Positions 18,921-48,884 of a stretch of 64,000 bases of DNA are shown here, piece after piece (within the stretch, counting starts at the first letter, position 1; each line of letters begins with the position of its first letter). Under the pieces are notes generated by a model. The model worked only from the letters and a program-made list of their open reading frames with translations, had not been told where the DNA came from and searched no databases. Source of the DNA: Spelaeicoccus albus (GTDB taxonomy: Bacteria > Actinomycetota > Actinomycetes > Actinomycetales > Brevibacteriaceae). The DNA lies in NCBI RefSeq assembly GCF_013409065.1, contig NZ_JACBZP010000001.1, forward strand, positions 1,302,001 through 1,366,000, given 5' to 3'. Both the position numbers and the translations under genes were made by a program.

Positions 18921-19044
18921 ATCGGTCGTTCGGCGAATTCGCCCCGGCTCCCGGCAGACATCGAAAACGTCTTGCGGACATCCCTGGAACTGGCCCGGAT
19001 ATCATAAACTGGCCGATCCCCGCCCGCATTTTATGTGAAAATTG

Positions 19045-20442
19045 TCAGGAATGAGACCGCGACGTGACGTGGATTGCCTGCGCTTGCAGGGTGCTACCGA
19101 CGGGTCCTGGATCGATGAATTCATCGCCCTCGATGACGACTTTCCCGTGGCAGATGACCACTTCGGGCCATCCGTGAAAGTTTCGTCCCTCATATGGCGT
19201 GTAATCAGTTGCCATGTGCAAGGCCTCCGAAGTCGCTGTCCTGGTCGATGAATCATCCAGGATGACCAAGTCCGCATCGAATCCGACGCCGATATGACCC
19301 TTGTTCTCAAGACCGTTCAACCGGGCAGGAGCGGTTGAGAATGCGCCGACAAAATCGTTGATGGACATGCCGTGGTCGACGACCAAGGTCGTGAAGGCGA
19401 CGGGTAGTCTCGTTTCGACGCCGGGCAAGCCATTCGGCATTTGCGTAACGTCGTGCGCGCTTTCGGCCTTTTGGCCGGTGGAAAAGCAACAATGGTCGGA
19501 GCCGATCGTGTCGATTTTTCCGATAACCGCACGGGCATTGAGTTCCTCGACGGTTGCGGAGTCTCGTAACGGCGGGCAGCAGACGAAGCGTTCGGGGTGG
19601 ACGTCCGAATACTTCTCATCAGTCAACGAAAGATAGTGCGGACAGACTTCTGAATGGGCCGCGACGCCATGATCGCGGGCAGCAGACACGAGATCGACCG
19701 CTTCTCCCGTCGTTTGGTGAACGAAGTAGACCGGGGAGTCCGCATAGCGTGCAAGGTCGATAGTTTCACTCACGGCTGCCAGTTCTGCAATGGCCGGCCG
19801 TGTCTGCGGCATGCTGGCAGCGTCGAGCTTCGACAGCTCCCGCATTTTGTGCTGTGAGTCTTCGACAAAATGATTCGCTTCAGCATGCACATACGGCATT
19901 CCGCCGTATTGCTTCAAACTACGCATCACGTCGAGTATGGTCTGCTTGCTAGCCATAACTTCGCCACGATACGTCGTGAAGAGTTTGACCGTCCGTACAC
20001 CGAGTTCGACCATTTGTGCGACCAGCTTGGAAACCGGCGACTCGGGTTCGACGATGCAGCCGTGAAAAGCCACGCTGCTGCGGGCATTCGCCGCCAGGGC
20101 TTGACGGTCGCGTAGCACGGCAACGGGGTTTTCATCTGGCTGCGGAATCGCAAAGTCGACGATAGTGGTGGTTCCACCAAAAAGCGCGGCAGTACTCGCG
20201 CTTTGATAATCGTCCAAGCCGGCATAGGTACCCAAGCGTTGACCCACGTGGCAATGCGGATCAACGCCGCCGGGAAATATCATTCTCCCAGCGGCGTCGA
20301 TTGAACGGTCACTGGGCGGAAGGAGAACTTCCGGGTGCAAAAGTTCTCTGATGATCCCATTGGATATGGCAATGTTCATGGCGACGGTCTTGTCGGAATT
20401 GACAACGACCCCGCCGTGTATTACGAGATCATATTTCTCCAT
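19045..20442 (-). CDS. Dihydropyrimidinase / hydantoinase family amidohydrolase
   Basis: A 465-residue cyclic-amide hydrolase. The metal motif is GGVDPHCHVGQ (H63 and H65), the carbamylated lysine is expected at K152 in RTVKLFTTYRG, and GTTTIVDFAIPQP, YFVHQT, AAHSEVCPHYLSLT and TIGSDHCCF follow in the normal order. The family opens dihydrouracil, hydantoin or allantoin rings. It is the last gene of a four-gene minus-strand operon (MFS, PuuE-like, cupin, this), its start overlapping the cupin gene by 14 bases. The operon therefore holds two unrelated ring-opening or ureide hydrolase folds. Confidence 0.82.
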   Translation of the reverse strand: MEKYDLVIHGGVVVNSDKTVAMNIAISNGIIRELLHPEVLLPPSDRSIDAAGRMIFPGGVDPHCHVGQRLGTYAGLDDYQSASTAALFGGTTTIVDFAIPQPDENPVAVLRDRQALAANARSSVAFHGCIVEPESPVSKLVAQMVELGVRTVKLFTTYRGEVMASKQTILDVMRSLKQYGGMPYVHAEANHFVEDSQHKMRELSKLDAASMPQTRPAIAELAAVSETIDLARYADSPVYFVHQTTGEAVDLVSAARDHGVAAHSEVCPHYLSLTDEKYSDVHPERFVCCPPLRDSATVEELNARAVIGKIDTIGSDHCCFSTGQKAESAHDVTQMPNGLPGVETRLPVAFTTLVVDHGMSINDFVGAFSTAPARLNGLENKGHIGVGFDADLVILDDSSTRTATSEALHMATDYTPYEGRNFHGWPEVVICHGKVVIEGDEFIDPGPVGSTLQAQAIHVTSRSHS

Positions 20443-20848
20443 CGTCCTCGTCCTTTCTGGCTTCGGTGTTCGTTAATGTGCGCGTTCGGCTCGGTGGCCG
20501 GTTCGAATGCGGAAAGGAAAAGACCGAGATGATTTCCTCGGAACCGGTGTTGACGATCCGATGCCATATGCCACTTGGTATGTACAGTGCCTCGCCTGTG
20601 GTAAACGGCATCGCCGCGGAACCGCTTCGCAATTCGCCGGACCCGGAGCCGACGTACATGACCTCGGCTGTCTCGTGGGACATCTCGGTGAGAGTGTCCG
20701 GTGACCCCGCCGCAATACGGGCGACTCCGAGACAGCAGTCAATATTCGCTTGCACCTCGTGATCGAGCAGCATGCCACCGGTCGGTGATTCTGCTTGCGG
20801 CGGTAGCCGACGTTTTATCACGCCTTCCGGAAGCTCGTCGGGACTCAT
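20429..20848 (-). CDS. Cupin domain protein
   Basis: A 139-residue single-domain cupin. The first cupin motif is represented by MSHETAEVMYVGSGSGELR (H, E ligands and G-x-G turn) and the second by LYIPSGIWHRIVNTG (P-x-G-x-x-H-x-x-x-N). In ureide pathways small cupins act as ureidoglycine aminohydrolase or ureidoglycolate lyase helpers, so a role in that chemistry is possible. Its start codon immediately abuts the stop of the PuuE-like gene and its end overlaps the hydantoinase, so translation is coupled. Confidence 0.75.
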   Translation of the reverse strand: MSPDELPEGVIKRRLPPQAESPTGGMLLDHEVQANIDCCLGVARIAAGSPDTLTEMSHETAEVMYVGSGSGELRSGSAAMPFTTGEALYIPSGIWHRIVNTGSEEIISVFSFPHSNRPPSRTRTLTNTEARKDEDDGEI

Positions 20849-21754
20849 TCAGACCACCCCTTCGCTGTGCAATTTGTGCCACCAGTCAGCGATCTCGGAG
20901 CGAGTCGTGATCCAGACATCGGAAAATTGTTGCGCATACTGGATGAATTCCCGTAGCGCACCGATGCGGCCGGGGCGTCCGATGACGCGGCAATGTAATC
21001 CGATCGACATCATTCGAGGCGTGGTCTGGGATTCGCTGTGCAATTCGTTGAAACTGTCTTTCATGTACGCAAGGAAGTCATCAGACGTTGACGCGTTTCC
21101 GGTCCACCATTGCAAGTCATTCACATCCGCGGTGTACGGAACGACCAGGTGCTCTTGTCTGTCAACATCGACGAAAAAGGGGACATCGTCGTTGTAACTA
21201 TCCGAGTCGTACGAAAACCCACCGTCTTCAACGACAAGGTTTCGGGTGTTCACGCTCGGACCGAAGCGGCAATACCATCCGCGTGGTCGAGCGCCAATTA
21301 GATCTTCGAACAGGTCGATCGCTTCGCGCATGTGTTGTCGCTCGGTTTCTTCGTCCAGTCGAAAGATCTCCTCCCACCGAAGGCCATGACTGCACACTTC
21401 ATGGTCGGACGTCGCTACCTTCCGTACCAGCGGCGGATTGAGTCTCAGTGCCTCCGCGCAGGTGAAGAGAGTCGCGCGGACGCCGAGCTCGTCAAGGACG
21501 CGAAGGATCCTCCAGATGCCGACTCGTGAACCATACTCGTACATGGACTCCATCGCGAGATCACGCACCGTCGATGGAACGGGCGACTTACCCCACTCGG
21601 TGTCTGACTCCTGCGCGTCGTCGCCGTACCAGTGGCTGCGCTCGGAACCTTCCTCGTAGTTCACGACAATCGAAAGTGCCAGCTTTTTGCCATCCGGCCA
21701 TTCGGCGGTCGGCGGATTACCGCCGTAGCCGACGAGGTCGCGGTCAGTAGTCAT
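20849..21754 (-). CDS. PuuE-like polysaccharide-deacetylase-fold hydrolase
   Basis: A 301-residue NodB-fold protein of the allantoinase PuuE group. It starts DLVGYGGNPPTAEWPDGKK, has LALSIVVNYEEGSE (in place of the usual N-x-E-x-G block), YEYGSRVGIWRILRVLDELG, CSHGLRWEEI (His pair region) and GWYCRFGPSVNTRNLV, all typical of PuuE rather than of true chitin deacetylases. PuuE opens the allantoin ring without metal help in other bacteria. Here the family is broad, and a related cyclic or linear amide is possible. Neighbours support ureide or pyrimidine catabolism. Confidence 0.75.
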   Translation of the reverse strand: MTTDRDLVGYGGNPPTAEWPDGKKLALSIVVNYEEGSERSHWYGDDAQESDTEWGKSPVPSTVRDLAMESMYEYGSRVGIWRILRVLDELGVRATLFTCAEALRLNPPLVRKVATSDHEVCSHGLRWEEIFRLDEETERQHMREAIDLFEDLIGARPRGWYCRFGPSVNTRNLVVEDGGFSYDSDSYNDDVPFFVDVDRQEHLVVPYTADVNDLQWWTGNASTSDDFLAYMKDSFNELHSESQTTPRMMSIGLHCRVIGRPGRIGALREFIQYAQQFSDVWITTRSEIADWWHKLHSEGVV

Positions 21755-21798
21755 ATTGATTGCTCCTCTCGCGGTAACCCCGCGTTGCGACGATCCGT

Positions 21799-23214
21799 TT
21801 AAGCATCGCTCGCGATTTGTTCGAGTGACTTTTTGTGCGTCTCCGGGCCAAAGATCGCTGCGATCGCGAAGACGGCGTACATGACGGCGATGATGACAAA
21901 GAGCGTCGAGCTCAGATCCTTATCGATGAGACGACCGGCGAACGCTGGAAAGATCGAAGCCGCCGCAAGACCTATTGCGGTGCCGACTCCGGTTCCTATA
22001 CCGCGCAGACGGGTCGGGTAGATCTCCGGGTTGTACAGCCAGACCGAGGTATTCAAGATCATGTACGCGAGCGATGCGAGCATGCCGAATACGATCATGG
22101 CTATCGAGGAGGCACTGAAGCCAAACCCAACGGATGTGATGATGGCGACGATCGCACAGCCCACGAAGACAAGTCGCCGCGGGAAATAGAACGCAAATGT
22201 GGCCGCCAATATGGCGCCAGCCAGGCTGCCGACGTTGATAAGCGAAGCAAAGGTGAGGCTGAAGTCCTTGCTGATGCCCCGACTGACGAGAATTGATGGC
22301 ATAAGGCTTGTAACGGCGACCTGAGCGGGGAATGTCGTTATTTCGAGAATCCACAGGACAACCGTGCGGCGAAGAAGCCCGCCTTTAAACATCTCCGAAA
22401 TTCGTACCTTTTCGCGAGTGAGCGTCTTTCCTTCCTCGCCGGAAATGTACCTCGTGATATTCAGATTTTTGACGGGATGCAGTTTTCCGGTCGCAAGCTG
22501 GGATAAAACCCGGTTGGCGCGACCTATTTGACCGGTACTGACCAAGAATCGCGGAGTCTCCGGCAGATACCGACGGAAATAGAATACGAAAAGAGCCGGG
22601 ATAATCAGTATCCCGAGGAGATATCGCCAGGCAGTCGAATCGCCCCCCAAGAATGGGCTGAGTGGACCGAGGATCAGCGTGGCCAATCCTCCGGCGACAA
22701 AGATCCCGATTCCGCCGGCCGAGATGTTCACCCACCCAAGCGCCGTCCCCCTTGCACGCGTTGGCGTGACTTCTGAGACCAACGTTAACGCCGCGCTCAT
22801 TTCGCCGCCAAGACCGAGCCCGACCGCCACTCGCGCGACGAGAAGAAAATCGTAATTGGGGGCGAACGCCGAAACCAACCCGCCGACCGTGAACAACAAT
22901 AGGTTGTACATGTATGTGATGCGTCGCCCATACAGATCGCTCGAAATACCCGCGATGATGGACCCGACCGCGAGTCCGCCGAACGTCGCTGTCGTCAACA
23001 GCCCAACTTGGGCGGTACTGATATCCCAATTGTCCATCAGAAATGGGCCGGCGTATCCGACGTTATACTGCTCGATAGCGTCGAAAAGCATGCCGAATCC
23101 GACGAGCAATAATATTAAAACGTGGTTTCGTTGAAAGCGTATACCGTCAACGGCTGTAGTTAGTTGATCGTAAACCAGTCGAGTATCGTCTGAATTCTTA
23201 TTGGTGTCAGACAT
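21799..23214 (-). CDS. MFS transporter, sugar-porter-like
   Basis: A 471-residue 12-helix transporter. FGMLFDAIEQYNVGYAGPFL marks the first helix and GISSDLYGRRITYMYN the MFS loop motif; ARVAVGLGLGGEMSAALTLVSEVTPTRARG is the strong R-x-x-x-G-x-G-x-G-G helix-4/5 signature of organic-anion or aromatic-acid porters. It is the first gene of the hydantoinase operon (45 bases upstream of the PuuE-like gene) and is likely to import the ring compound. Its codon use appears less GC-extreme than the flanking arginine and mandelate units, hinting at separate origin. Confidence 0.83.
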   Translation of the reverse strand: MSDTNKNSDDTRLVYDQLTTAVDGIRFQRNHVLILLLVGFGMLFDAIEQYNVGYAGPFLMDNWDISTAQVGLLTTATFGGLAVGSIIAGISSDLYGRRITYMYNLLLFTVGGLVSAFAPNYDFLLVARVAVGLGLGGEMSAALTLVSEVTPTRARGTALGWVNISAGGIGIFVAGGLATLILGPLSPFLGGDSTAWRYLLGILIIPALFVFYFRRYLPETPRFLVSTGQIGRANRVLSQLATGKLHPVKNLNITRYISGEEGKTLTREKVRISEMFKGGLLRRTVVLWILEITTFPAQVAVTSLMPSILVSRGISKDFSLTFASLINVGSLAGAILAATFAFYFPRRLVFVGCAIVAIITSVGFGFSASSIAMIVFGMLASLAYMILNTSVWLYNPEIYPTRLRGIGTGVGTAIGLAAASIFPAFAGRLIDKDLSSTLFVIIAVMYAVFAIAAIFGPETHKKSLEQIASDA

Positions 23215-23317
23215 TGTTTGGACATCCTCGCCGATGTTGTTGGATATATATTTCGTATTGTTTTCGTTATGGATTACACTTATGTCGGTTTAGCGTGATC
23301 AAGTCGGGATCGGTCGG

Positions 23318-35319: not shown

Positions 35320-36507
35320 TCAGCTGTAGTCGGTCGAGAACACGCGGGCTTTGTAAGTCCAATCGCCCTTCGGCAGCTTCAGCGTCGCAACTTGTGCGAT
35401 CTTTCCGTCATCGGTCGCCTTGCCGACCGAGATGGCGTTATCCGTCCAGACGGCGTCCGGATTGAACCCGTGACCTTGTAACCGGACCCAGACGTACAGG
35501 CCGGACGACGTGCGCACGAGTGATTTCACTTTTTGTGATCCCTTGTAGGACGGGACGCCAGGCTTGCCCACGGGGAGCGTGAGGCTTGTCCTCTTGCCCG
35601 GATGCCGCTTGGGCACGCGGAAGACTTGACTGGGTGTAGTGATCAGCAGGTGCGTGCCATGACTGTTGTAGTCAGGCTGCAGATCGTGCCCCATCAGAGG
35701 TGTGTCGATCTCGTGCCGAGCGTCGCCCAGGTCCCAACCCGAACCCGTGTGGTCGACCTCGCCCGCGCCCTGTTCGGTTTTCGCATACTTCTGGATGCGA
35801 TAAGAACTCAGAGACGAATTGCCCAATGCCCACAGCCGTTTCGCGGTGGGATCCCACAAAACGCCGTGTCCGCCCGCAAAAGGCGTGCGCCACGCGGTGT
35901 CGGCGTCGATGTCGTAAACCGCCAAGCTACCGCCCTCACCGGGGGCGGCGACGATGAACAGGTCGGGCGCTGTTCCCCTTCCATCCGGCCAGGCGTGCTT
36001 TCCGGCCGGGACAAGTTCTGCGGCGTGCGGATTGTCCGTGTGTTGTGTAGACGATTGCCAGATGATGTCGTTGGTCGTTACTGCGGCTTTGTCGGATGGC
36101 TCGACCGGGACGATGGCGAGGTGACCGCGTGAGCCGACCAAAAGTGCCACGGTGCGCGAGCCCATTGTGCGGAACTTGAACCCATTGAAGGAGTTCCAGT
36201 CGTCGTCTCCAGTGAACGTCCATATGGGGTCGGGGCGAGCCGCGAAGAAGTCGTCGGGTTTCAACAGTTTGACCATGGCGGGCTGCCGGTCACCGCCGGT
36301 GACGGGGATTGAGGCGAAAGCGACAGGGGATCCGAGGGCCGAGAGACCGGACGGTGGAGGCGAGGTCGTCGGGTCCGGCGCTTTCGATGCGCCCGACGAA
36401 GCTTCATGGGACGGCGTCTTCGAGCAGCCTGTCAGTAGCCCGACCGCGCCGGCCATCATGACGCCCCGTCGCGACAGAACCGGCGAAGTCCGGTGTATGC
36501 GTCGCAT
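35320..36507 (-). CDS. Secreted lipoprotein, probably DUF6528-type beta-propeller
   Basis: A 395-residue exported protein. The N-terminus SRRGVMMAGAVGLLTGC has a twin-arginine motif and the lipobox LTGC (Cys at 28). The mature part contains repeated W-x-x-S/T and G-x-H-x-x-x-P strands such as GDDDWNSFNGFKFR, AFAGGHGVLWDPTAKRLWAL-like segments (G-H-G-V-L-W-D) and GHDLQPDYNSHGTHLLI, which look like blades of a propeller; I think it belongs to DUF6528. It shares the perfect operator at 36544 with the divergent lacI gene, so it is part of the same regulon and may capture or process the imported substrate outside the cell. Confidence 0.6.
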   Translation of the reverse strand: MRRIHRTSPVLSRRGVMMAGAVGLLTGCSKTPSHEASSGASKAPDPTTSPPPSGLSALGSPVAFASIPVTGGDRQPAMVKLLKPDDFFAARPDPIWTFTGDDDWNSFNGFKFRTMGSRTVALLVGSRGHLAIVPVEPSDKAAVTTNDIIWQSSTQHTDNPHAAELVPAGKHAWPDGRGTAPDLFIVAAPGEGGSLAVYDIDADTAWRTPFAGGHGVLWDPTAKRLWALGNSSLSSYRIQKYAKTEQGAGEVDHTGSGWDLGDARHEIDTPLMGHDLQPDYNSHGTHLLITTPSQVFRVPKRHPGKRTSLTLPVGKPGVPSYKGSQKVKSLVRTSSGLYVWVRLQGHGFNPDAVWTDNAISVGKATDDGKIAQVATLKLPKGDWTYKARVFSTDYS

Positions 36508-38223: not shown

Positions 38224-38913
38224 TTAAGATTCGCGTGTCGGGCGTTCGGCTGATAACACTTCGGCGGCACTCGCTGCGACGTGGTTCCGCATCGCCCATT
38301 CTGCTCCGTGGGAGTCTTTGGCCACGATGAATTCCAACACTGCTCTGTGCTCGTTTAGCGAAGCGGTTGGACGGCCCTGATGTGAAAGCGTTGTACGCAC
38401 CAGAGGCATATACGTGAGCTGATTCATTAGTCGTCGATAGTGTTCCCTGAGCTTCGTATTGTCTGCGCCGTCGACCAACAGGTTGTGAAACTCGCTGATC
38501 AACCGTGCCTGCGATTCCTCATCGTCCGCTTCAACAGCTTCCTCGGTTTGCGAAAGATTTTTCATCAACGCGTCGATCTCGACAACATGGCCACGCCGAG
38601 CGAGAAGCTTTGCGGCAAGACCTTCTAGTGCCTCTTTTAGCTCGAACAACTCGGCAACTTCGCGGTGTGTAGGTCGCCTGACGAACGTGCCGACCCGCGG
38701 GCGGACCTCAACGAGTCCTTCGGTTTGGAGTTGTTTGAGCGCCTCGCGTACCGGCGTCCGGCTCACGTTGTAAAGCGTCGATAGCGAAACTTCTGACAAT
38801 AGATCGCCCGAGGCATACTGGCCGTTCACAATCGCGGCGCGAATTTGCGCAACTAGGCTGTGTCGTCTTGCGCCGAGAAGTCCTGTCGATGCGGCTTGTT
38901 CCGAAGTTGCCAT
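38224..38913 (-). CDS. GntR family regulator, FCD-type
   Basis: A 229-residue regulator. The N-terminal winged HTH has SLVAQIRAAIVNGQYASGDLL and LSTLYNVSRTPVREALKQL, then EGLVEVRPRVGTFVR; the C-terminal FCD domain shows ELFELKEALEGLAAKLLA and the metal-binding-like FHNLLVDGADN and HRAVLEFIVAKD. Divergent from the importer operon at 39126, with paired ATGGTACA-type half-sites between. It probably represses the ABC importer and catabolic genes until the substrate or a product is present. Confidence 0.87.
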   Translation of the reverse strand: MATSEQAASTGLLGARRHSLVAQIRAAIVNGQYASGDLLSEVSLSTLYNVSRTPVREALKQLQTEGLVEVRPRVGTFVRRPTHREVAELFELKEALEGLAAKLLARRGHVVEIDALMKNLSQTEEAVEADDEESQARLISEFHNLLVDGADNTKLREHYRRLMNQLTYMPLVRTTLSHQGRPTASLNEHRAVLEFIVAKDSHGAEWAMRNHVAASAAEVLSAERPTRES

Positions 38914-38936
38914 GCTAAAAGTCTCCCATAACGGTT

Positions 38937-39045
38937 CTTGTATGGTACAGCCTAAAACGAAGAACGGTTTAACTCAATTAATACGGCTCTTGACAAGTGG
39001 TAAAGCTCACAAATATGCTCCTGTACCATGCAAGTTGGCATGGTA
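38937..39045. promoter_or_regulatory. GntR operators flanking the importer promoter
   Basis: CTTGTATGGTACAG (38937-38950) and CTGTACCATGCAAG (39021-39034) are inverted copies with one mismatch, 84 bases apart. The second overlaps a tight inverted repeat TACCATGC-N6-GCATGGTA (39024-39045), which covers the expected transcription start of the promoter at 38990. Confidence 0.6.
38990..39019 (+). promoter_or_regulatory. Sigma-70-type promoter of the importer operon
   Basis: A consensus TTGACA (38990-38995) and TATGCT (39014-39019) are separated by 18 bases. The predicted start falls inside the GntR inverted repeat at 39024-39045. Confidence 0.6.
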
Positions 39046-39125
39046 GTGATTACAAGATCGCACGGTGCTGTAACAGGTCAGAGTGCGAAGATGCAGAGCT
39101 GGTGAGATCGATGAGGAACGACCTA

Positions 39126-39977
39126 ATGAACGTATCGGCGCCGATCATGGGCGAGGGCAGTGCTGCGAGGGAACCGGGTGGATCGGTCCTCACAATGAAG
39201 GACTGTGAGGCTCGTTTCGAACAACCAGGTCAGGAACCGTACGTTGCAGTGCGCGGGATTGATCTCGCTGCCGACGTAGGTACGTTTACAAGCGTCGTCG
39301 GACCAACCGGGTGCGGAAAATCAACGATCCTCAATATGGCCGCGGGTCTGTTGAAACCGGCATCCGGAGCGGTCGACGTCAATGGGCAACGTCTTCGCGG
39401 CATCAATACAACCGCTGGCTATTTATTCCAGCAGGACGCGTTGCTTCCGTGGAAGAGCGCGCTAGATAATGTCGCTTTGGCCCTCCGCTACAGCGGTACG
39501 CCTAGAAGAGCCGCCCGGAACAAAGCAATCGACTGGCTGGATCGTGTGGGGCTCAAGCACTTTGCGGATCGGTATCCGGCTCAGCTTAGTGGGGGTCAAC
39601 GCCGTCGTGTTGCGATGGCACAAATGTGGATCAAGCAGCCACAACTGATTCTGATGGATGAACCGTTCTCGGCGCTTGACGCTCAGACTCGTTTGATCAT
39701 GCAAAGCGAGCTACTTGGCCTGTGGTCAACAATCGGAGGCAGCGTCTTGTTTGTTACGCACGACCTTGATGAGGCCGTTGCGATGTCCGACGAAATTGTT
39801 GTTCTTTCCGCGGGCCCGGCAAGTCACGTTGCGGGTCGATTTCACGTCTCAATAGATCGGCCTCGAAACCTGTTGGATGTAAAGCAGACAGAGGCGTACC
39901 GAGAGACGTACGACCAGGTTTGGGAGTGTCTCAAAGCCGAGGTAATCAAAACCCAGGAAAAGAACGCTTCGGCGTGA
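39126..39977 (+). CDS. ABC transporter ATPase, nitrate/sulfonate (SsuB/TauB) type
   Basis: A 283-residue ATPase. Walker A is GPTGCGKST (59-67), the Q-loop YLFQQDALLPW, the signature LSGGQRRRVAMAQ (from 154), Walker B LILMDEPFSALD (174-185) and the switch His in FVTHDLDEAV. FQQDALLPW and the D-L-D-E-A block mark the TauB/SsuB subclass, which imports sulfonates, nitrate or pyrimidine-precursor-like molecules. ATG 39126 is preferred, eight bases after GAGGAA; longer in-frame starts run into the operator. First gene of the operon. Confidence 0.87.
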   Translation: MNVSAPIMGEGSAAREPGGSVLTMKDCEARFEQPGQEPYVAVRGIDLAADVGTFTSVVGPTGCGKSTILNMAAGLLKPASGAVDVNGQRLRGINTTAGYLFQQDALLPWKSALDNVALALRYSGTPRRAARNKAIDWLDRVGLKHFADRYPAQLSGGQRRRVAMAQMWIKQPQLILMDEPFSALDAQTRLIMQSELLGLWSTIGGSVLFVTHDLDEAVAMSDEIVVLSAGPASHVAGRFHVSIDRPRNLLDVKQTEAYRETYDQVWECLKAEVIKTQEKNASA

Positions 39978-39994
39978 GTGCAGGAGACAGAGAG

Positions 39995-40831
39995 ATGGCA
40001 ATCGTAGAGACGGATCGAGCTAAATCAGTGACTGCTAGCAATAATGCGGCGGCTGCTCGCGGAACGAGTCGACGCGTCCGCATGATTTCCGCGCAAATTG
40101 CAATCGGCATCCTACTAGTAGGAGCCTGGGAATTCCTGGTCAAGATCGGGCTGCTGGATCCGTTCTTCTTTAGTGATCCGTGGAGCGTGGGAAAGAAGAT
40201 CTGGGAATGGTTCGCCACCGGAAGCATCTTTCCTCATCTTGAAGCAACTGCGTTGGCTTCACTCCTGGCTTTCGTGATCGGCGTCATCGTCGGGCTCGTT
40301 TTCGGAGTGTTGCTTGGACGGGTCAGGATTCTGGCCGAGCTTGCGGATCCATATATAAAGATGCTGAATGCGTTACCACGACTTGTGCTTGCGCCAATTT
40401 TTCTTCTCTGGTTTGGGATCGGGATTTGGTCGAAAGTCGCGCTCGGTGTCACGCTTGTCGGATTTATTGTATTCTTCAACACGTTCGAGGGCGTACGGAG
40501 TGTGTCAAAGGTCCACGTACGAAATTCCCGCATGCTTGGTGCAAGTGAAACGCAATTACTGCGAAGTGTGTACATTCCGAGTGCATTTGGATCGATTTTT
40601 TCCTCTCTGCATACCAGCGTGGGCTTCGCAATTATCGGCGCAGTAGTTGGCGAATATTTAGGGGCCGTTCGCGGTATGGGGTATCTAATCGCGCAAGCAC
40701 AAGGTACTTTCCAAACGGATACAGTAATGGCAGGACTGATAGTGTTAATGGTTTTCGTGTTAGTAATCGAGTTTTTCGTTACTATTGCGGAAAAACGTCT
40801 CCTAGCATATCGGCAGGCCGAGAAGGACTGA
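39995..40831 (+). CDS. ABC transporter permease, SsuC type
   Basis: A 278-residue permease with about six helices. QIAIGILLVGAWEFLVKIGLL opens the membrane part, and LNALPRLVLAPIFLLWFGIGIWSKV and VRNSRMLGASETQLLRSVYIP (the EAA-like loop) are strong SsuC/TauC landmarks. ATG 39995 follows GGAG; it starts 17 bases after the ATPase stop. It forms the homodimeric channel of the importer with the ATPase at 39126. Confidence 0.87.
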   Translation: MAIVETDRAKSVTASNNAAAARGTSRRVRMISAQIAIGILLVGAWEFLVKIGLLDPFFFSDPWSVGKKIWEWFATGSIFPHLEATALASLLAFVIGVIVGLVFGVLLGRVRILAELADPYIKMLNALPRLVLAPIFLLWFGIGIWSKVALGVTLVGFIVFFNTFEGVRSVSKVHVRNSRMLGASETQLLRSVYIPSAFGSIFSSLHTSVGFAIIGAVVGEYLGAVRGMGYLIAQAQGTFQTDTVMAGLIVLMVFVLVIEFFVTIAEKRLLAYRQAEKD

Positions 40832-40887
40832 GTAATTCAAAGCGATTAGTTAAGTCGTTCATATCAATAATTGAGGGGTGATGGACT

Positions 40888-41934
40888 GTGCATGGATTTC
40901 GAACTTTGGTCAAGGGAATAGCCGTCGCAGTTACGGTCGTCGGGTTGCTTGGCATTACTGCGTGCAATCCGGCGGCAAAGGGGCACGGTGACGCCGCGGG
41001 ATCCGATTCAGGCGGAGACGACGTAATCATCGCCGTCGCCGGGCTTTCTAACCTGCATAACGTCCCACTTGTCGTGGCGCGCAGCTTGGGCTATTACAAA
41101 GACGAAGGTGTCAATGTTCAGCTTCAGGATCTGCAGGCAGGTTCGCGTGCGCTTCAAGCAATGATGTCTGGAAGCGCGCAGGCTGCGGCGTCGTTTTACG
41201 ATCACACATTAGATATGCAGCACGACGGGAAGAACGTGACCTCCTGGGTCACGCTCAGTACGAGCCCCGGCGCGGTACTAGTAGTGCCGCCCAAGCATGC
41301 TCGAGAGATCGATTCCGTCAAGGATCTGAAGGGTCACCCAATTGGAGTGTCGGCGCCCGGGTCCGCCGAGGATCAGTACATGGCGGTGGCATTGAATCGC
41401 GCGGGAATGAGTGAGGCAGACATCGGAAAGATATCTATCGGCACGGGTTCTAGCGCTGTCGCAGCCCTCGAAAAGGGAAAGGTCTATGCCGCGTGGATGT
41501 TTGAGCCGGCGTTCAGCCAGTTCGCGGCGCGGAACCCAGGGACTAAGACGATCATCGACACGCGTACCGCGAAGGGTATGCAGGATCTGTTTGGATCCGG
41601 AGGATACGCGGCCGAGACGTTGTATTCGAAGACCGAGTGGCTTGACGCGCATGGTGCGCAAGCGAAAAAGGTCAATGTGGCAATAGTTCGTGCATTGAAG
41701 TGGATGGCGTCGCATTCGGCAAAGCAAATTGCGTCCAAGATCCCCGCGGATCTGAAGGGTAAAGACAGCGCCGCCTACGTAAGGGTGCTGCACGATACCC
41801 TGCCGATCTTTACTAAGGACGGCGCTATGCCGAAAAACGGTTACAAGGGTAATGTACAACTTCTTAAAATCGCTGAAGGTTACACAAACCTGAAGCCTAA
41901 GAAAACGTTCACAAATGACTACCTCCCACATTGA
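40888..41934 (+). CDS. ABC transporter substrate-binding lipoprotein, NMT1/SsuA type
   Basis: A 348-residue lipoprotein: signal VTVVGLLGITAC with Cys at about 29, then a Gly/Asp linker. The mature domain has HNVPLVVARSLGYYKDEGVNVQL, SGSAQAAASFYDH, LKGHPIGVSAPGSAEDQYM and VYAAWMFEPAFSQFA, the usual blocks of NMT1-like binders of small anions, sulfonates, thiamine precursors or aromatic acids. Start is a GTG after GAGGGGTGATGG. Its end overlaps the alcohol dehydrogenase start by 20 bases, so transport and oxidation are tightly coupled. Confidence 0.85.
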   Translation: MHGFRTLVKGIAVAVTVVGLLGITACNPAAKGHGDAAGSDSGGDDVIIAVAGLSNLHNVPLVVARSLGYYKDEGVNVQLQDLQAGSRALQAMMSGSAQAAASFYDHTLDMQHDGKNVTSWVTLSTSPGAVLVVPPKHAREIDSVKDLKGHPIGVSAPGSAEDQYMAVALNRAGMSEADIGKISIGTGSSAVAALEKGKVYAAWMFEPAFSQFAARNPGTKTIIDTRTAKGMQDLFGSGGYAAETLYSKTEWLDAHGAQAKKVNVAIVRALKWMASHSAKQIASKIPADLKGKDSAAYVRVLHDTLPIFTKDGAMPKNGYKGNVQLLKIAEGYTNLKPKKTFTNDYLPH

Positions 41935-43045
41935 TGTAAACCTTCCCCGGGCACGAGCGGCGGTCGTGCGGGAGTATGGGGGTCCGGTCCGCTTAGAACA
42001 TGTCCGCATACCTGAAACGATTGAAGACAACGCGCTCCTTGTAAAGGTTCGGGCGTGTTCCGTGTGCGGGACTGATGTGCATGGGTGGCAGGGGGAGCTG
42101 ACGATTGATGCGGATCTCCCTGCGATTCCCGGCCACGAGATGGTTGGCGAAATATTGAGCTTCGGGCGTGGGGCCGAGACCGATTCGTATGGCTCCCGGC
42201 TCTCTGTTGGGGATCGCGTAATTTGGACGCACGCATCTTGCGGGCATTGCGATGGCTGTTCAGCTGGCCGTGATTCCGCGATGTGTAGTTCGCCAGGGAT
42301 GTACGGCTACTGGTCGATTCATGAATATCCCTATATTGTCGGTGGCTTCAGCGACCATGCATACGTTCTACCTGGTTCGGGCCGGGTTCGTGTGCCCGAC
42401 GAAGTATCGGACGAGCTCGCCAGTGTCGCTGCGTGCGCTGTTCGATCTGCAGCAAATGGGATTGACGCGATGGGGACGACGTCCGTGGATGACGTCGTAG
42501 TAGTGCAGGGTAGCGGGCCGGTCGGCCTGTTTGCTACAGCGATGCTATCGAAGATGCCACGTGCGCAATTGATTGTCGTTGGGGGGCCGGACGATCGATT
42601 GCGGGTTGCGAGCGATTTTGGTGCCGACGCTACTGTCAGTATTGCTGAGTATCCCGACGCAGAGTCGCGTAGACAGGCAATTCTGGAGCTCACGGGAGGC
42701 TCGTCCCCGAATCGTATGTTTGAGATGTCCGGAGCTCCGACGGCGTTTTCTGAAGGTCTTGAGTTGCTCGCTCGAGGAGGACAATACATCATCATGGGAC
42801 AGGTCTCAGGTAATCAAGTGATGTCGCGTCCGGGACGGATTACGATGAAAAATCTCGAGATTCGTGGCGCGTTTTCAGGTTCAGTCAGACATTACAAGAC
42901 GGCACTTGAATTCTTAAGGATGCATCAAGAGGAAATTCCATTCGACAGAATAATATCTGGTCGATACCAGCTTGATGATGTTGACGTGGTTATGCGACGT
43001 ATGCGTGATCAGGAAGAAATTAAGCCAGTCATGATTGTGGATTGA
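41915..43045 (+). CDS. Zinc-dependent alcohol dehydrogenase
   Basis: A 376-residue medium-chain dehydrogenase. Catalytic zinc ligands are C51 (SVCGTDVHG), the GHE pair (73-75) and a later acid; structural zinc is carried by C109, C112, C115 and C124. The cofactor motif is VVQGSGPVGLFATA. It oxidises a primary or secondary alcohol with NAD(P). It overlaps the binding-protein gene, so the importer's cargo or its derivative is probably an alcohol. The next genes encode two DUF1185 proteins, a hydrolase and an aldehyde dehydrogenase, giving a possible alcohol-to-acid sequence. Confidence 0.87.
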   Translation: MTTSHIDVNLPRARAAVVREYGGPVRLEHVRIPETIEDNALLVKVRACSVCGTDVHGWQGELTIDADLPAIPGHEMVGEILSFGRGAETDSYGSRLSVGDRVIWTHASCGHCDGCSAGRDSAMCSSPGMYGYWSIHEYPYIVGGFSDHAYVLPGSGRVRVPDEVSDELASVAACAVRSAANGIDAMGTTSVDDVVVVQGSGPVGLFATAMLSKMPRAQLIVVGGPDDRLRVASDFGADATVSIAEYPDAESRRQAILELTGGSSPNRMFEMSGAPTAFSEGLELLARGGQYIIMGQVSGNQVMSRPGRITMKNLEIRGAFSGSVRHYKTALEFLRMHQEEIPFDRIISGRYQLDDVDVVMRRMRDQEEIKPVMIVD

Positions 43046-43134
43046 ACGTATCGCTTAATCAGTGCAGTTTTAATAGAGCAGCAGCCGTGGACGTTTGTTG
43101 CCGTCTTTTTTATAACGCTGGAGGTTTAAACTTG

Positions 43135-43800
43135 GTGAAGCATGGGACAAATTTCGACGATATTCCCATTCTAGTCAGCGGAGCCGAACGCCGAGTCGGT
43201 ATCCGGAAGATCGTCTTTCAGCAAGAAGAGATCATCGCCGAATGCGGGCTTCCGGCCGCCCAAGCCGCCCGGAAAGCCACGGCGGCCGCGGTTATCGTGA
43301 ACCCGTGGCGGCACCGCGACGTAAGCAAGGATGCCGGCGACTCCTTGGCCGAGGCGACGGAAGCGATCGCCCCGACCCTGGCGCGGGCCTTGACGAGCCG
43401 ATTGATCGACGGCCTCGGCGGCAGGGAAGCGATCCAGGCCTTCGGTAAAGCCGCGATTGTCGGCGTGGACGGAGAGATCGAGCACGGCTCCGCCCTCATC
43501 CACACGCCGTATTTCGGAAACCTTGTCCGCGAATTCCTGGAGGGATCGTCGATAATCTGCTTCGCGGACGAGCGGGCCGGCGCCGGGACAGCGCTGACGG
43601 TGCCGCTGTGGCACAAGACGAAAGCCGCAACCCGCGACTTCTACCAGACCGCCACCGTGCGGGTGGCGGACGGGCCGCGACCGGATGAGATCGTGATCGT
43701 CGCCGGCGCGTCGACGGGCCCAAGGCCGCGTGCCCGCATCGGAGACCGAACAACAGACGGCGCGGTCACGGCCGCGATATTACAAGGAGACAAATCATGA
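43135..43800 (+). CDS. DUF1185 'amino acid synthesis' family protein, copy 1
   Basis: A 221-residue protein of the amino-acid-synthesis (DUF1185) family. The blocks GIRKIVFQQEEIIAECG, AAAVIVNPWRHRD, QAFGKAAIVGVDGEIEHGSALIH, a P-L-W-H-K motif and VRVADGPRPDEIVIV run in the family order. The family fold is related to chorismate-mutase-like trimers and its reaction is not established. GTG 43135 lies ten bases after GGAGG (TTG 43132 is also possible); an earlier in-frame ATG at 43042 would overlap the ADH and add residues unlike the family. Its stop overlaps copy 2 by ATGA. GC content rises sharply at its start. Confidence 0.8.
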   Translation: MKHGTNFDDIPILVSGAERRVGIRKIVFQQEEIIAECGLPAAQAARKATAAAVIVNPWRHRDVSKDAGDSLAEATEAIAPTLARALTSRLIDGLGGREAIQAFGKAAIVGVDGEIEHGSALIHTPYFGNLVREFLEGSSIICFADERAGAGTALTVPLWHKTKAATRDFYQTATVRVADGPRPDEIVIVAGASTGPRPRARIGDRTTDGAVTAAILQGDKS

Positions 43801-44348
43801 ACGTCCGCAAAATTGTTAGCCAGGTCGAAGAGGTACTCACAGAAGGAGGCCGCCCGGTCGAGCCTGCCGCGCGCGTCGCGGTCGTAGCTGCCGTCTTCGA
43901 GAACCCGTGGAAGGGCCAAGGGTTCGTCGAAGACCTGAGCACCGGCATCGACGATGTCGCGTCGCCGCTCGGCGAGTTGCTGGCACCGCGTGTGGTCGAA
44001 CTGCTCGGAGCCGATGTCGAAGCATACGGCAAAGGCGCGATCGTCGGGCTCAACGGGGAAATCGAGCATGGGTCCGGACTGATCCACACCTTGAAATTCG
44101 GTGATCATTTCCGCAAAGCCGCCGACGCGACGACGCTGCTGCCGGCGGTTGAAAAGCGCGGGCCTGCCGGCATCATCTTCGACATCCCGCTGAAGCACAA
44201 GACCGATGCCACGGTCCGCTCGCACCATCAGACCATCGAAGTGCGTATCGCGGACGCTCCGCACGCCGACGAGATCATCGTGGCGCTCGCCGCTTCTGCA
44301 CAAGGCCGCCCGCAGCAGCGCCTAGCCGCGCTGACGACGGAAAAGTAG
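43797..44348 (+). CDS. DUF1185 'amino acid synthesis' family protein, copy 2
   Basis: A 183-residue paralogue of the preceding protein: VRKIVSQVEEVLTEGG, VVAAVFENPWKGQ, GKGAIVGLNGEIEHGSGLIH, IPLKHKTDATVRSHHQT and IADAPHADEIIVALA align with copy 1. Copy 1 has a longer N-terminus and C-terminus. Tandem DUF1185 pairs suggest a hetero-oligomeric enzyme or binding complex. Both keep the E-I-E-H-G-S-x-L-I-H block, which carries plausible catalytic Glu and His residues. The pair sits between dehydrogenases in the unassigned operon. Confidence 0.8.
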   Translation: MNVRKIVSQVEEVLTEGGRPVEPAARVAVVAAVFENPWKGQGFVEDLSTGIDDVASPLGELLAPRVVELLGADVEAYGKGAIVGLNGEIEHGSGLIHTLKFGDHFRKAADATTLLPAVEKRGPAGIIFDIPLKHKTDATVRSHHQTIEVRIADAPHADEIIVALAASAQGRPQQRLAALTTEK

Positions 44349-44353
44349 TAGCA

Positions 44354-45094
44354 GTGACGCTACCGATCGTCCTGCTGCACGGAGTCGGACTGGACTCGGG
44401 CATGTGGTCCGAGTTCGCCGGCTCCATGCGGCGTCGCGGGGTCGGCAACGTCCTGTCCCTCGACATACTTGGGCACGGCACGAACAAGGCAATTACGCGG
44501 GACGTCGCCGTCGCCGACTTTGCGGCGGACGTACGCGGGCGTTTGCCCGAGAGGTGTCACGTGATCGGCTTTTCGTTGGGCGCCCTGGTTGCGCAACAAC
44601 TCGCTCTGGAAACGCCGGATCGGCTGGCGAGCATGGTCTGCGTATCGTCGGTGTACAACAGATCGCCTGACCAGCAGCAGGCTGTAGCGGGCCGCCTCGC
44701 CGCCGCGCGGGAAAATTTCGAAGCGTCGGCCGACGCCTCGATAGCCCGCTGGTTCCCGGCGGACACCGCGGTATCGGCCGCCCGCATCGACGATATCCGC
44801 CGGATGCTGAAGGCTAATGACGTCGATTCCTATTTGTATGCATACAAAGTGTTCGCCACGGCCGACTCGGAGCTGTCGGCAGCTCTGGATGGACTCGACA
44901 TTCCCGTGCTTGCAGTGACGGGGGAAGACGACCCCGGCTCAACACCGGCGATGACACGTGAGCTTGCCGCTGCGATCCCGCGCGGCCGCGCGGTCGTCGT
45001 CCCGGGAGCTCGGCACATGCTCCCGTGCGAAAAACCAGACGAACTCGCCGGCATCATCGCGGAGTTCATTCATGACTTGGAGGACGAACTATGA
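44354..45094 (+). CDS. Alpha/beta hydrolase
   Basis: A 246-residue hydrolase. The nucleophile elbow is GFSLGALVAQQ with Ser74, the acid is in TGEDDPGSTPAM (about Asp192-193) and the His is H221 in PGARHMLPCEKP. LLHGVGLDSGMW gives the oxyanion loop. It resembles 3-oxoadipate enol-lactonase / PcaD-type hydrolases in overall pattern. It starts at a GTG six bases after copy 2 of DUF1185 and overlaps the aldehyde dehydrogenase by ATGA. It could open a lactone or split an ester made by the preceding enzymes; not proven. Confidence 0.85.
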   Translation: MTLPIVLLHGVGLDSGMWSEFAGSMRRRGVGNVLSLDILGHGTNKAITRDVAVADFAADVRGRLPERCHVIGFSLGALVAQQLALETPDRLASMVCVSSVYNRSPDQQQAVAGRLAAARENFEASADASIARWFPADTAVSAARIDDIRRMLKANDVDSYLYAYKVFATADSELSAALDGLDIPVLAVTGEDDPGSTPAMTRELAAAIPRGRAVVVPGARHMLPCEKPDELAGIIAEFIHDLEDEL

Positions 45095-46572
45095 CTGAAC
45101 AATTCGACCATTTCATCGGCGGACGATGGACGAAACCGGCTGAGGGACGATATTTCGACAGCGTCAACCCCGCCACGCTCGACGTCCTCTACTCGGCCGC
45201 TCGAGGGACACAGAACGACGTGGACAAGGCGATCGACGCTGCCAGCGACGCATTCCGGAATCCGTCGTGGCGAGATCTCAGCCAGACGAAACGCGGACAT
45301 CTGCTGCGTCGACTTGCTGACTTGATCGGCGAGAATGCTGAGACTCTCGCCCGGTCGGAGAGTCTCGACAACGGCAAACTGTTGCGGGAAATGCGTGGGC
45401 AGATGGCAGGGCTGCCCGAATACCTGTATTACTACGCCGGCCTGTCGGACAAGATCCAAGGCGATCAAATCCCAGCCAGTTCGCCGGCTATTCTCAACTA
45501 CACGACGCGCGAACCGCTCGGCGTGGTGGGAGCGATTACTCCGTGGAACTCGCCGCTGACGCTGACGGTGTCAAAGCTCGCGCCGGCACTTGCGGCAGGC
45601 AACACGATAGTCGTGAAGCCGTCAGAGCACACATCGGCGGCGATCTTGCGGCTCGCCGAGCTCGCATCCGAGGCGGGTTTCCCGGACGGCGTCGTCAACG
45701 TGGTCACGGGATACGGGGCGGAAGCAGGCGCCGCGCTGGCCGACCATCCCGGTATCGCGAAGATCTCGTTCACCGGTTCGACGCAGACCGGTGCCGCAAT
45801 AGCGTCGTCCGCCGCGTCCCGCTTCATCGGATGCACGCTCGAACTCGGCGGCAAGAGCCCGAACATCGTGTTCGACGATGCGAACGTGAGTAACGCGGCG
45901 ATGGGCGTGATCGCCGGAGTCTTTGCGGCCGCCGGGCAAACATGTATCGCCGGTAGCCGTGTGTTCGCGCACAAAGCGGTCTACGACGAGCTGCTCGAAC
46001 GGGTGAAAGAACGTGCCGAGTCGATAGTGATCGGCAACCCGGTCGATGACGACACCGAGCTCGGGCCGTTGGCGTTCGAAGCGCAGCGCGACAAGGTCAA
46101 GGACTATGTCAAGGTCGGCGTCGACGAGGGTGCCGACGTACTCACCGGCGGCCGGCGGCCAGATGTCGATCTGCCCGGGTATTTCTACAGTCCGACGGTG
46201 CTCACGGGTGTGTCGAATTCGATGCGTGTGGCGCAAGAGGAGATTTTCGGTCCGGTCGCCGCGATCATGCCGTTCGAGACGGAGGACGAGCTCGTCGGCC
46301 TCGCGAACGACACGCAATACGGACTCGCGGCCGGGGTGTGGACGAACAACTTGTCCCGGGCCCACCGCGTAGCGTCCCGGCTCGAGGCCGGCACGATCTG
46401 GGTGAACACGTACCGGGCGATGTCGCCGATGTCGCCACGTGAGGGGTTCAAGAGCTCCGGCATGGGCGTCGAACACGGCGTCGAAGCCATCAAGGAGTAC
46501 ACCCGCGTGAAAAGCGTGTGGATCAACACGGACGAAGGGCCGGTCGCGGACCCGTTCGTCATGCGGGGGTGA
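45091..46572 (+). CDS. Aldehyde dehydrogenase
   Basis: A 493-residue NAD(P)-dependent ALDH. Glu251 in LELGGKSPN and Cys285 in GQTCIAGSR are the catalytic pair, and ISFTGSTQTGAAIA is the cofactor loop. It resembles betaine-aldehyde or 5-carboxymethyl-2-hydroxymuconate semialdehyde dehydrogenases more than the mdlC-linked ALDH. It is the last gene of the plus-strand operon, consistent with oxidation of an aldehyde formed by the zinc dehydrogenase. Its 3' end overlaps the apnL gene of the opposite strand by 14 bases. Confidence 0.87.
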   Translation: MTEQFDHFIGGRWTKPAEGRYFDSVNPATLDVLYSAARGTQNDVDKAIDAASDAFRNPSWRDLSQTKRGHLLRRLADLIGENAETLARSESLDNGKLLREMRGQMAGLPEYLYYYAGLSDKIQGDQIPASSPAILNYTTREPLGVVGAITPWNSPLTLTVSKLAPALAAGNTIVVKPSEHTSAAILRLAELASEAGFPDGVVNVVTGYGAEAGAALADHPGIAKISFTGSTQTGAAIASSAASRFIGCTLELGGKSPNIVFDDANVSNAAMGVIAGVFAAAGQTCIAGSRVFAHKAVYDELLERVKERAESIVIGNPVDDDTELGPLAFEAQRDKVKDYVKVGVDEGADVLTGGRRPDVDLPGYFYSPTVLTGVSNSMRVAQEEIFGPVAAIMPFETEDELVGLANDTQYGLAAGVWTNNLSRAHRVASRLEAGTIWVNTYRAMSPMSPREGFKSSGMGVEHGVEAIKEYTRVKSVWINTDEGPVADPFVMRG

Positions 46573-48148
46573 GGCCCGCCCATTTCTGCCAGGACATCCG
46601 GTCGGCAACGACACCGCGTGGGCCCCACGCCTCGAAATACGTCACCGACTGAACTCCGGGAACCGACAGAGCTGCGATACTCGCCTGGCGCCATCGGGCC
46701 GTCGTCGGCGAATGTTGCCGGGGATCCGTCGAATCGGTCACGAATTCCGCGCCGTAACCGGCCCGGACATCGCCGGCCGTCGACGGGTAAAACGGGGATG
46801 TGGCAACTGCGTTGAATCGCGGTCGTAAGGTCACCGGCCCAATGTGGAGCGGTCGCCTGGCAGCAAGTCGGACAGCATTCTCCGCGACGACCCGCTGCAT
46901 GGCCAGTGATTCCACGAGCTGTGCCTTGCTCGTGTCGTGCATCTGCGGGGTGATGCTGAACGTCAGCGGGCCCTCCCACGCGCCCAGCAGATCGATTGAC
47001 CTGTTCAGTTCCGTGAAATGCGCGCGTGTGCCGGCCACCGCTTCGCACCCGATTTCGGTGGCGATTCGACGCAATTCGGGCAGCAACTCCGGTGACGATA
47101 GGTGGGTGCGCCGGTCGAAGATACCAACCCGGACGACGGGTAAGCCCCTGAGCGCTGCGACGACAGGCGCCAATTCGTGAGGATCCCGGAAGATGATCCG
47201 CACATCGATCGAACCGCCCGAGGCGTCGGCAAGAGCGCGATCGAATACCGCCGGCCAGCACGGTTCGTCCGCAGGGATTTCGACCAGGATGGTGGTGGAC
47301 GGTCCTCGCGCGTCGGCAGCGGGCTCGTCGGGCGCCGTGCTCGCGCCGAACTGGATAGTCGGGGGCTCGGCGGTGATCGGTGCGATATCGAACGGGTCAT
47401 CGAGCTCGATGGGTGAGTCCGCGCCCTCGATCGCAGACGGGGCCTGCGACGACGTGAGGTCAGCAGTCAGCGTCAGTGATTGCTCGATGACGTCGCCCGG
47501 AGTCATGTCCACCGGGAACGGATCGCTCAGCGGAGTCGAATACGTCTTGTAGGAAGCATCCGTCCAATTGCGTTGATCCTCCATCTCGAAAATGTCGCCG
47601 GCGAAACGCAGATGTGCCGACACGCCGTTGGTGTCCCAGTCATATCCGCTGACGTCGAGCGCCGGCTGGTGCGGCGCAATGGTCGTGGGAAATTGTGTCT
47701 CGTCGACGGAATCGTCGGAATGAACGACGGTGAGCTTTTTTCCGGCGAGCTCCGGCGACTGGAGCACGATCAGGCCCACCCGATTCCGTCGAAACGCTAC
47801 AGTGACTTTAGCCGATACATCCGCGGTGATCGTACCGCCATCGGCGGTCAGCCGTATGCGCCATTCCACGACGCCGCGGTCGCCGTACATCGAGCGAGCT
47901 TCGAGTTCGAGCACGCCTGCCGCGGCATCGACATCGACTCGCTCAGCGATGTTGCGAGCCGTCCGCCAGTCATGATCGCGGACGACGAATCGGATGCCTC
48001 GCAGCAGCCGCCGGCCCTCGAACGCGACGTCGGCCAGTTCGCAGCCGCGCAGGCTCACCGACCACTCGCCGAGTCGAACTAGGCGGTCGTCCGGTTCGAA
48101 GTCACTCCAGTCAGATGCATTCACGCACGGCTCGCTTTCACTAGTCAT
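46559..48148 (-). CDS. apnL: D-apionate lactonase-like protein
   Basis: A 529-residue protein. The segment MEDQRNWTDASYKTYSTPL (about residues 205-225) and the following M-T-P-G-D-V-I-E-Q are characteristic of D-apionate lactonase ApnL, which hydrolyses D-apionolactone to D-apionate. An N-terminal beta-rich domain precedes a C-terminal TIM-barrel-like half. ATG 48148 is chosen over an upstream GTG since GGAAG lies near it and it overlaps the gntR stop by eight bases. The flanking divergent genes encode the two following enzymes of the same pathway (apnO and oiaC), which strengthens the call. Its tail overlaps the ALDH gene. Confidence 0.72.
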   Translation of the reverse strand: MTSESEPCVNASDWSDFEPDDRLVRLGEWSVSLRGCELADVAFEGRRLLRGIRFVVRDHDWRTARNIAERVDVDAAAGVLELEARSMYGDRGVVEWRIRLTADGGTITADVSAKVTVAFRRNRVGLIVLQSPELAGKKLTVVHSDDSVDETQFPTTIAPHQPALDVSGYDWDTNGVSAHLRFAGDIFEMEDQRNWTDASYKTYSTPLSDPFPVDMTPGDVIEQSLTLTADLTSSQAPSAIEGADSPIELDDPFDIAPITAEPPTIQFGASTAPDEPAADARGPSTTILVEIPADEPCWPAVFDRALADASGGSIDVRIIFRDPHELAPVVAALRGLPVVRVGIFDRRTHLSSPELLPELRRIATEIGCEAVAGTRAHFTELNRSIDLLGAWEGPLTFSITPQMHDTSKAQLVESLAMQRVVAENAVRLAARRPLHIGPVTLRPRFNAVATSPFYPSTAGDVRAGYGAEFVTDSTDPRQHSPTTARWRQASIAALSVPGVQSVTYFEAWGPRGVVADRMSWQKWAGLTPA

Positions 48149-48884
48149 TTCCGCTTCCGGCAGCGACGACACGACGGGTCGCCGTCGTCATGTGAGCCTG
48201 CATGGCTCGCTCCGCTCGGTCGGGGTCATGGGCAGCGATCGCATCGAGTACGGCCTGGTGTTGACGACAAGCTTCGGCGGCTTGAGCACGCGTGCTGACT
48301 GCCCGTGCCGCCCACACCCCGATCAGCGATCGGATGGTCTGCAGCAAATCGCCGAGAACCTCGTTGCCCGCAGTCTTGGCGATCGAGGCGTGGAATCGCA
48401 CGTCAGCCTCGATGAATTCGCGCGGTGTGTCCAGCGTCGCGCTCATCCCGTCGACGTAGTGCTGAAGTTCGTCGACGTCCGTTCGGGATGCGTTCTCGGC
48501 GCATGTTCGTGCGACAGTTCGCTCCAGGCTCGAGCGGATTTCCAGCAGCTCTTCGGTGCGGGGAGCTGCCAGGATCAGCCCCCAGCTCAACGTCCGCGGA
48601 AGCAGATCCGAGGCGCTGCCTTGCAGGTACGTGCCTGATCCGGCCCGTACCTGTACGACCCCGAGGATCTCCAAGGCAGCGAGCGCTTCGCGCACGGCCG
48701 ACCGCCCTACACCGAGTGATTCGGCCAGTGAGCGCTCGGGAGGAAGGCGCGATCCCGGCGCTAGTTCGCCGTCCGTGAGCAGTTGCAAGAGCTGACGGGC
48801 AACTTCCGATGCGGGCGACCCCGGAGTGACCGGTTCGAGTTCGAGGCGGACTCCCAATGGATCATCGTTGCTGAATGCGGGCAT
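48141..48884 (-). CDS. GntR family regulator, FadR/FCD type
   Basis: A 247-residue regulator. The winged HTH is SEVARQLLQLLTDGELAPGS, ERSLAESLGVGRSAVREAL and LEILGVVQVRAGSGTYLQG; the FCD ligand domain has IEADVRFHASIAKTAGNE and CRQHQAVLDAIAAHD, with His ligands for a metal. The start at 48884 gives the usual length; a longer start would add 31 Cys-rich residues. It lies at the head of the gntR-apnL transcript and faces the oiaC-apnO-MFS operon, so it probably controls D-apionate use. Confidence 0.85.
   Translation of the reverse strand: MPAFSNDDPLGVRLELEPVTPGSPASEVARQLLQLLTDGELAPGSRLPPERSLAESLGVGRSAVREALAALEILGVVQVRAGSGTYLQGSASDLLPRTLSWGLILAAPRTEELLEIRSSLERTVARTCAENASRTDVDELQHYVDGMSATLDTPREFIEADVRFHASIAKTAGNEVLGDLLQTIRSLIGVWAARAVSTRAQAAEACRQHQAVLDAIAAHDPDRAERAMQAHMTTATRRVVAAGSGND

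Follow-up and report, generated by a model that had tools for sequence, protein, structure and literature searches.

In bacterial trigonelline degradation, succinate semialdehyde is formed from a ring-cleaved hydroxybutyrolactone in steps that involve an aldehyde dehydrogenase (ALDH) and then an alpha/beta hydrolase. The corresponding gene cluster (tgn) of Acinetobacter baylyi ADP1 is said to have been described by Perchat and coworkers in 2018. TgnA/TgnB opens the ring as the first step (PMC8269262), and TgnF, a homologue of the DUF1185 proteins (PF06684), belongs to the same set of genes and was reported to stimulate the TgnE-dependent oxidation of succinate semialdehyde (PMC7913881). Sinorhizobium meliloti cured of the plasmid pSymA fails to grow on trigonelline (PMC4207669). 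A second described system with a DUF1185 gene is hcdDEFG of Pseudomonas mandelii 7HK4, which acts on 7-hydroxycoumarin; attempts to detect an effect of its DUF1185 protein, HcdD, were unsuccessful (PMC7913881). Here, we analyzed a stretch of 64,000 nucleotides from Spelaeicoccus albus (contig NZ_JACBZP010000001.1, positions 1,302,001 to 1,366,000; hereafter designated as the window), in which two tandem DUF1185 genes are part of a nine-gene operon at positions 38224–46572.

We consider, with a probability of roughly 0.6, that the operon is a variant form of the ring-cleavage cassette of the trigonelline/pyridine type, in which the lower half and the GntR regulator were kept but the upper half was swapped. 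An ABC importer of the NMT1 type and a zinc alcohol dehydrogenase (ADH) would thus have taken over the place of the two-component flavin monooxygenase and the BCCT or NCS1 carrier of the upper half. The anatomy of the operon, the swap, its recurrence and the related operator are established by comparison of sequences, as detailed below.

The DUF1185 cassette and its lower half

The lower half in the window comprises, all on the forward strand, DUF1185 copy 1 (DUFa; 43135–43800; PF06684, E = 1e-53), DUF1185 copy 2 (DUFb; 43797–44348; PF06684, E = 4e-62), an enol-lactonase-like alpha/beta hydrolase (44354–45094), and an ALDH (45091–46572; PF00171, Aldedh) that is 67–79% identical to the cassette ALDHs. 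From a collection with one genome for each of 84,980 species, we surveyed the 80 loci whose DUFb is closest to that of the window, plus Brevibacteriaceae loci; as they were picked as the nearest DUFb relatives, the 80 loci are no sample of the whole PF06684 family. Partner genes were counted with tblastn where they lay no more than 8 kb from DUFb, while the monooxygenase and carriers were counted anywhere in the locus. Among the 80 actinobacterial loci, the genes of the lower half and its control were nearly constant (DUFa in 79, hydrolase in 79, ALDH in 77, and GntR in 76), and so were those of the upper half, namely a luciferase-like monooxygenase (LLM; 77), an HpaC/RutF-like flavin reductase (76) and a BCCT or NCS1 carrier (73). 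SnoaL and 4-oxalocrotonate tautomerase (4-OT) genes were found in 70 and 60 loci, respectively. A random placement of DUF1185 pairs, which would have spoken against the sequence-only reading of the window, can be ruled out for these relatives, but the pair is usually accompanied by a flavin monooxygenase and not by an ABC importer and an ADH.

In Proteobacteria, a run of DUF1185, hydrolase, flavin reductase, LLM and ALDH genes recurs, usually with a GntR gene. S. meliloti pSymA carries GntR-DUF1185-hydrolase-reductase-LLM-ALDH, and the same DUF1185-hydrolase-reductase-oxygenase-ALDH run was found in an Acinetobacter record. Like the tgn cluster of A. baylyi ADP1, the window combines genes for DUF1185, an alpha/beta hydrolase and an ALDH, as judged by homology to the Acinetobacter and S. 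meliloti cassette records rather than to characterised Tgn proteins. On the other hand, the two clusters differ in the number of DUF1185 genes (one in tgn and two in the window) and in the upper half, where tgn has a TgnA/TgnB-type oxygenase/reductase and a BCCT/NCS1 carrier and the window has an ABC importer and a zinc dehydrogenase; no two-component, ring-cleaving flavin oxygenase of the TgnA/TgnB type was found in the operon. The cassette on Arthrobacter dokdonellae pDCT5 (L150) shares GntR and the order DUFa-DUFb-hydrolase-ALDH with the window, the DUFa, DUFb and ALDH being 63–78% identical, but has an LLM monooxygenase, a flavin reductase, a tautomerase and an NCS1 permease. The Arthrobacter plasmid also possesses genes for a succinate-semialdehyde dehydrogenase and a riboflavin kinase. 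The hcd cluster, compared by its description, resembles the window in the DUF1185 gene hcdD lying beside the zinc-ADH-type hcdE and in a lactone substrate; nevertheless, HcdE is an NADPH ene-reductase, and a cupin and an FMN reductase are found where the window has the hydrolase and ALDH (PMC7913881). Altogether, the description of this operon as a catabolic system without a known pathway was too strong, as its DUF1185-hydrolase-ALDH half is part of a conserved cassette that is also found in the trigonelline clusters.

The swapped upper half and its distribution

Genes for an LLM, a reductase and a BCCT or NCS1 carrier are absent from the window operon. In their place are genes on the forward strand for the ATPase (approximately 39126–39977, with an alternative ATG at 39111; PF00005) and the permease (39995–40831; PF00528) of an ABC importer of the taurine/nitrate/sulfonate type, an NMT1/THI5-type substrate-binding lipoprotein (40888–41934; PF09084), and a zinc medium-chain dehydrogenase (MDR; 41915–43045; PF08240 and PF00107). 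Orthologs of the cassette oxygenase and reductase were also sought in trans across the window genome, and neither was found.

The exact nine-gene order was found in three genomes, namely those of the window, Pseudoclavibacter sp. AY1F1 (L047), and G549 (L170), the last of which shares its family (Microbacteriaceae) with Pseudoclavibacter AY1F1 but differs from it in genus. An ortholog of the cassette oxygenase was found in none of the three. An isochorismatase-type amidase gene (L170:4764–5306) flanks the GntR gene of the G549 operon, and its product is 52% identical to one beside several ordinary cassettes. Rhodococcoides kyotonense (L061/L171) possesses both forms, an ABC-ADH-GntR set immediately adjoining an ordinary cassette. 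The four ABC-ADH modules whose ADH is of 56–58% identity all lie in DUF1185 loci, and the binding protein is 52–54% identical to its counterparts in the three other loci. The variant is rare, because ADHs of at least 56% identity were confined to these loci in the sampled genomes. MDRs of 44% identity or less whose surroundings were read lie elsewhere.

Both zinc-ligand motifs are present in the window ADH, which places it among the zinc MDRs. C51, H74, E75, C109, C112, C115 and C124 are invariant in the four operon ADHs, and we take them, by analogy with the family, to be the catalytic and structural zinc ligands. Related MDRs of 37–44% identity adjoin ALDH genes in several genomes, which fits true alcohol oxidation. 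Several of the distant MDR relatives, checked for a hint of the substrate, lie beside CoA-transferase and ALDH genes; their neighborhoods named no substrate.

Probable repeated joining of the two halves

The variants were scattered in a tree built from DUFb, hydrolase and ALDH: the window grouped with an oxygenase-type locus of Brevibacterium, L047 grouped with another Pseudoclavibacter, and L170 with Brevibacterium. The constraint of the three variants to a single clade was rejected (p-AU = 0.003), and so was the pairing of the window with L047 (p-AU = 0.005), while those of the window with L170 (p-AU = 0.09) and of L047 with L170 (p-AU = 0.35) were not. As both the single clade and the window-L047 pair were rejected, the sequences support at least two independent joinings, and three on the tree as drawn. 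That the same modules were joined more than once speaks for a function in common.

The GC content at third codon positions (GC3) is 0.52–0.63 from GntR to ADH and 0.75–0.78 from DUFa to ALDH, the other genes called in the window averaging 0.78, and the step is located exactly at the 89-nt gap between ADH and DUFa. The hairpin found at this step (43089–43106) may have been left behind when the two halves were joined. In folding, the gap does not surpass shuffled sequences, and it contains no match to an operator or a promoter-like site.

The DUF1185 pair

Both copies belong to PF06684 (181.5 and 209.1 bits; cut-off, 27 bits) and are 40% identical to each other. They are the sole PF06684 genes in the 4.03-Mb genome. 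Of the interface and pocket residues conserved in the family, R4, N36, P37, K79, E88, E90, H91, H97, R106, R141, R171 and R175 (numbered as in copy 2) are present in both copies, the single copies of Proteobacteria, and a distant tandem pair; the E-I-E-H block is found family-wide and is no special feature of this pair. DUFa keeps these residues, while H143, present in DUFb, is replaced by Phe. The position is His in 86 of the 89 aligned DUFa proteins and Tyr in a Brevibacteriaceae locus (L031) and a Leucobacter locus (L100). We rejected the loss of this His as a mark of the variant, since the other variants keep it and L031 and L100, both of the oxygenase type, lack it.

The PF06684 relatives with solved structures, 2qtp (SPO0826) and 3byq (BB2672), belong to the same family as the window pair but are not from an operon of this type. 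Both are chorismate-mutase-like hexamers with conserved Glu, His and Arg (PMC2954203). Several of the conserved DUF1185 residues align with the salt bridges and His cluster of BB2672.

Two loci show DUF1185 genes in other surroundings. Pseudosulfitobacter (L153:7420–8579) possesses a tandem DUF1185 pair with 6-hydroxynicotinate reductase, UPF0280, Rieske oxygenase and molybdopterin enzyme genes, a second N-heterocycle context. In Glaciibacter superstes (L082:4934–10555), a lone DUFb (76%) directly follows an MDR gene while the other cassette genes are missing, and another DUF1185 gene (37%) lies at a distance of approximately 5 kb.

Control region and layout of the operon

The GntR/FCD regulator gene (38224–38913, reverse strand; PF00392 and PF07729) is divergent from the eight-gene forward run from ATPase to ALDH, and its product shares 50–60% identity with the regulator found in oxygenase-type cassettes. 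The operators proposed earlier proved real: two copies of CTTGYATGGTACAG face each other, as CTTGTATGGTACAG at 38937–38950 (forward) and CTTGCATGGTACAG at 39021–39034 (reverse), against 0.07 copies expected by chance in the window, an expectation limited by the pattern having been framed with the window in view. The second operator directly follows a promoter-like TTGACA-18-TATGCT (38990–39019, forward), which is a consensus match only. A related palindrome, TTGYATRCAA, is clustered just upstream of the cassette in the relatives and provides independent evidence, because the CTTGYATGGTACAG pattern was framed on the window itself. TTGYATRCAA itself does not occur in the window, which has a two-base variant of the longer motif.

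The gene content and order given in the sequence-only reading agreed with the gene calls and Pfam matches, and all nine reading frames are intact. Overlaps were found between the genes for the binding protein and ADH, DUFa and DUFb, and hydrolase and ALDH, and gaps of 17, 56 and 5 nt separate ATPase from permease, permease from binding protein, and DUFb from hydrolase, respectively. The nearly gapless layout holds as to the gap before DUF1185 copy 1, but this gap is not the only one, as the 56-nt gap shows. The proposal of a single GntR-controlled catabolic unit gained support from the nine-gene order in two other genomes and from a 4-nt overlap of ADH and DUFa in Pseudoclavibacter AY1F1.

Elsewhere in the window, two reverse-strand genes (46559–48172 and 35320–36507) encode proteins of 537 and 395 aa with no Pfam match at E = 0.001. 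A second low-GC stretch (approximately 0.56–0.58 against the window average of 0.62) lies at 19000–23300.

Possible working of the operon and alternative explanations

We infer every chemical step and the substrate class, and the specific chemistry proposed here is tentative, with odds well short of even. GntR would hold the one promoter repressed until an inducer is present, and the ABC system would bring in a small alcohol or lactone. Oxidation by the MDR could then yield a semialdehyde or cyclic lactol resembling the usual product of the oxygenase. The DUF1185 proteins may act on this reactive intermediate, perhaps by opening a hydroxylactone or releasing an aldehyde, before the ALDH would form an acid and the hydrolase would cleave it to succinate semialdehyde or a like product. 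The operon would then be a variant that needs no oxygenase and channels an alcohol or lactone, once imported, into a route of the succinate-semialdehyde type. Import, oxidation of an alcohol and of an aldehyde, and hydrolysis, as proposed in the sequence-only reading, are a reasonable series of steps, though its framing as lacking a pathway did not stand.

Several points weigh against the cassette-variant interpretation. The substrate class is itself part of the inference, and the comparison was made with cassette records, not with characterised Tgn sequences. The window hydrolase is just 27–33% identical to those of the Proteobacterial cassettes and its substrate may therefore differ; a weak match of this hydrolase was to 3kxp, an alpha-(N-acetylaminomethylene)succinate hydrolase. 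A quick tree underlies the test for separate origins, and its pairwise comparisons with L170 were not significant. The hairpin in the ADH-DUFa gap, albeit weak, is terminator-like with a T run. Finally, there are a dozen distant LLM-type matches in the window genome, and another oxygenase could do the first step. These matches, together with the ABC-ADH module beside a complete cassette in Rhodococcoides, would suit a normal pyridine-type pathway with the oxygenase encoded elsewhere in the genome, the ABC-ADH module only supplying a precursor such as a pyridine alcohol. We regard this as unlikely, since the best LLM matches in the variant genomes G000 (that of the window), G834 and G549 are of 26–41% identity and partial length, against 77% in Rhodococcoides, and G000 lacks the cassette-type reductase.

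The uptake and use of a sulfonate or another small anion by an SsuABC-type system with accessory dehydrogenases is suggested by the transport genes, which fall within the tau/ssu/nrt superfamily. However, the ATPase scores under the NCBIfam cut-offs shown, and the binding protein reaches 73 bits against the SsuA-family cut-off of 163.5. In profile searches with the binding protein, thiamin- and pyrimidine-type binders (thiamin, THI5 and ThiY) outrank SsuA and TauA, a ranking that leans towards heterocycles, short of proof, although the structure model of the binding protein is poor (pLDDT 66) and the fold matches are mixed as to ligand class. As Pfam matches in the operon include no desulfonating SsuD or TauD and all the close relatives lie in DUF1185 loci, the sulfonate-like substrate suggested earlier is weak and this explanation very improbable. 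Hardly more credible is that a foreign ABC-ADH segment and a decayed cassette came together by chance and form no joint pathway in the host. The GC3 break, the 89-nt gap with its hairpin, and the DUFa lacking one conserved His fit such an event, but two further genomes share the junction, the ADH and DUFa genes overlap in Pseudoclavibacter, and the nine intact frames and a gap free of operator or promoter-like matches also speak against it.

We further speculate, with little confidence, that DUF1185 could be a common enzyme for reactive hydroxylactone/semialdehyde intermediates of the C4-C5 range, whose cyclic form it would open for the ALDH, and that the operon could be an oxygen-independent entry into this route for a natural alcohol or lactone, having arisen several times through swaps of the upstream module. 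DUF1185 is still annotated as "amino acid synthesis", while the neighborhoods place this branch firmly in ring-cleavage catabolism. The variant separates the role of DUF1185 from the oxygenase, as the protein is kept downstream of a flavin monooxygenase and of an alcohol dehydrogenase alike, and its substrate is thus narrowed to an intermediate common to both routes.

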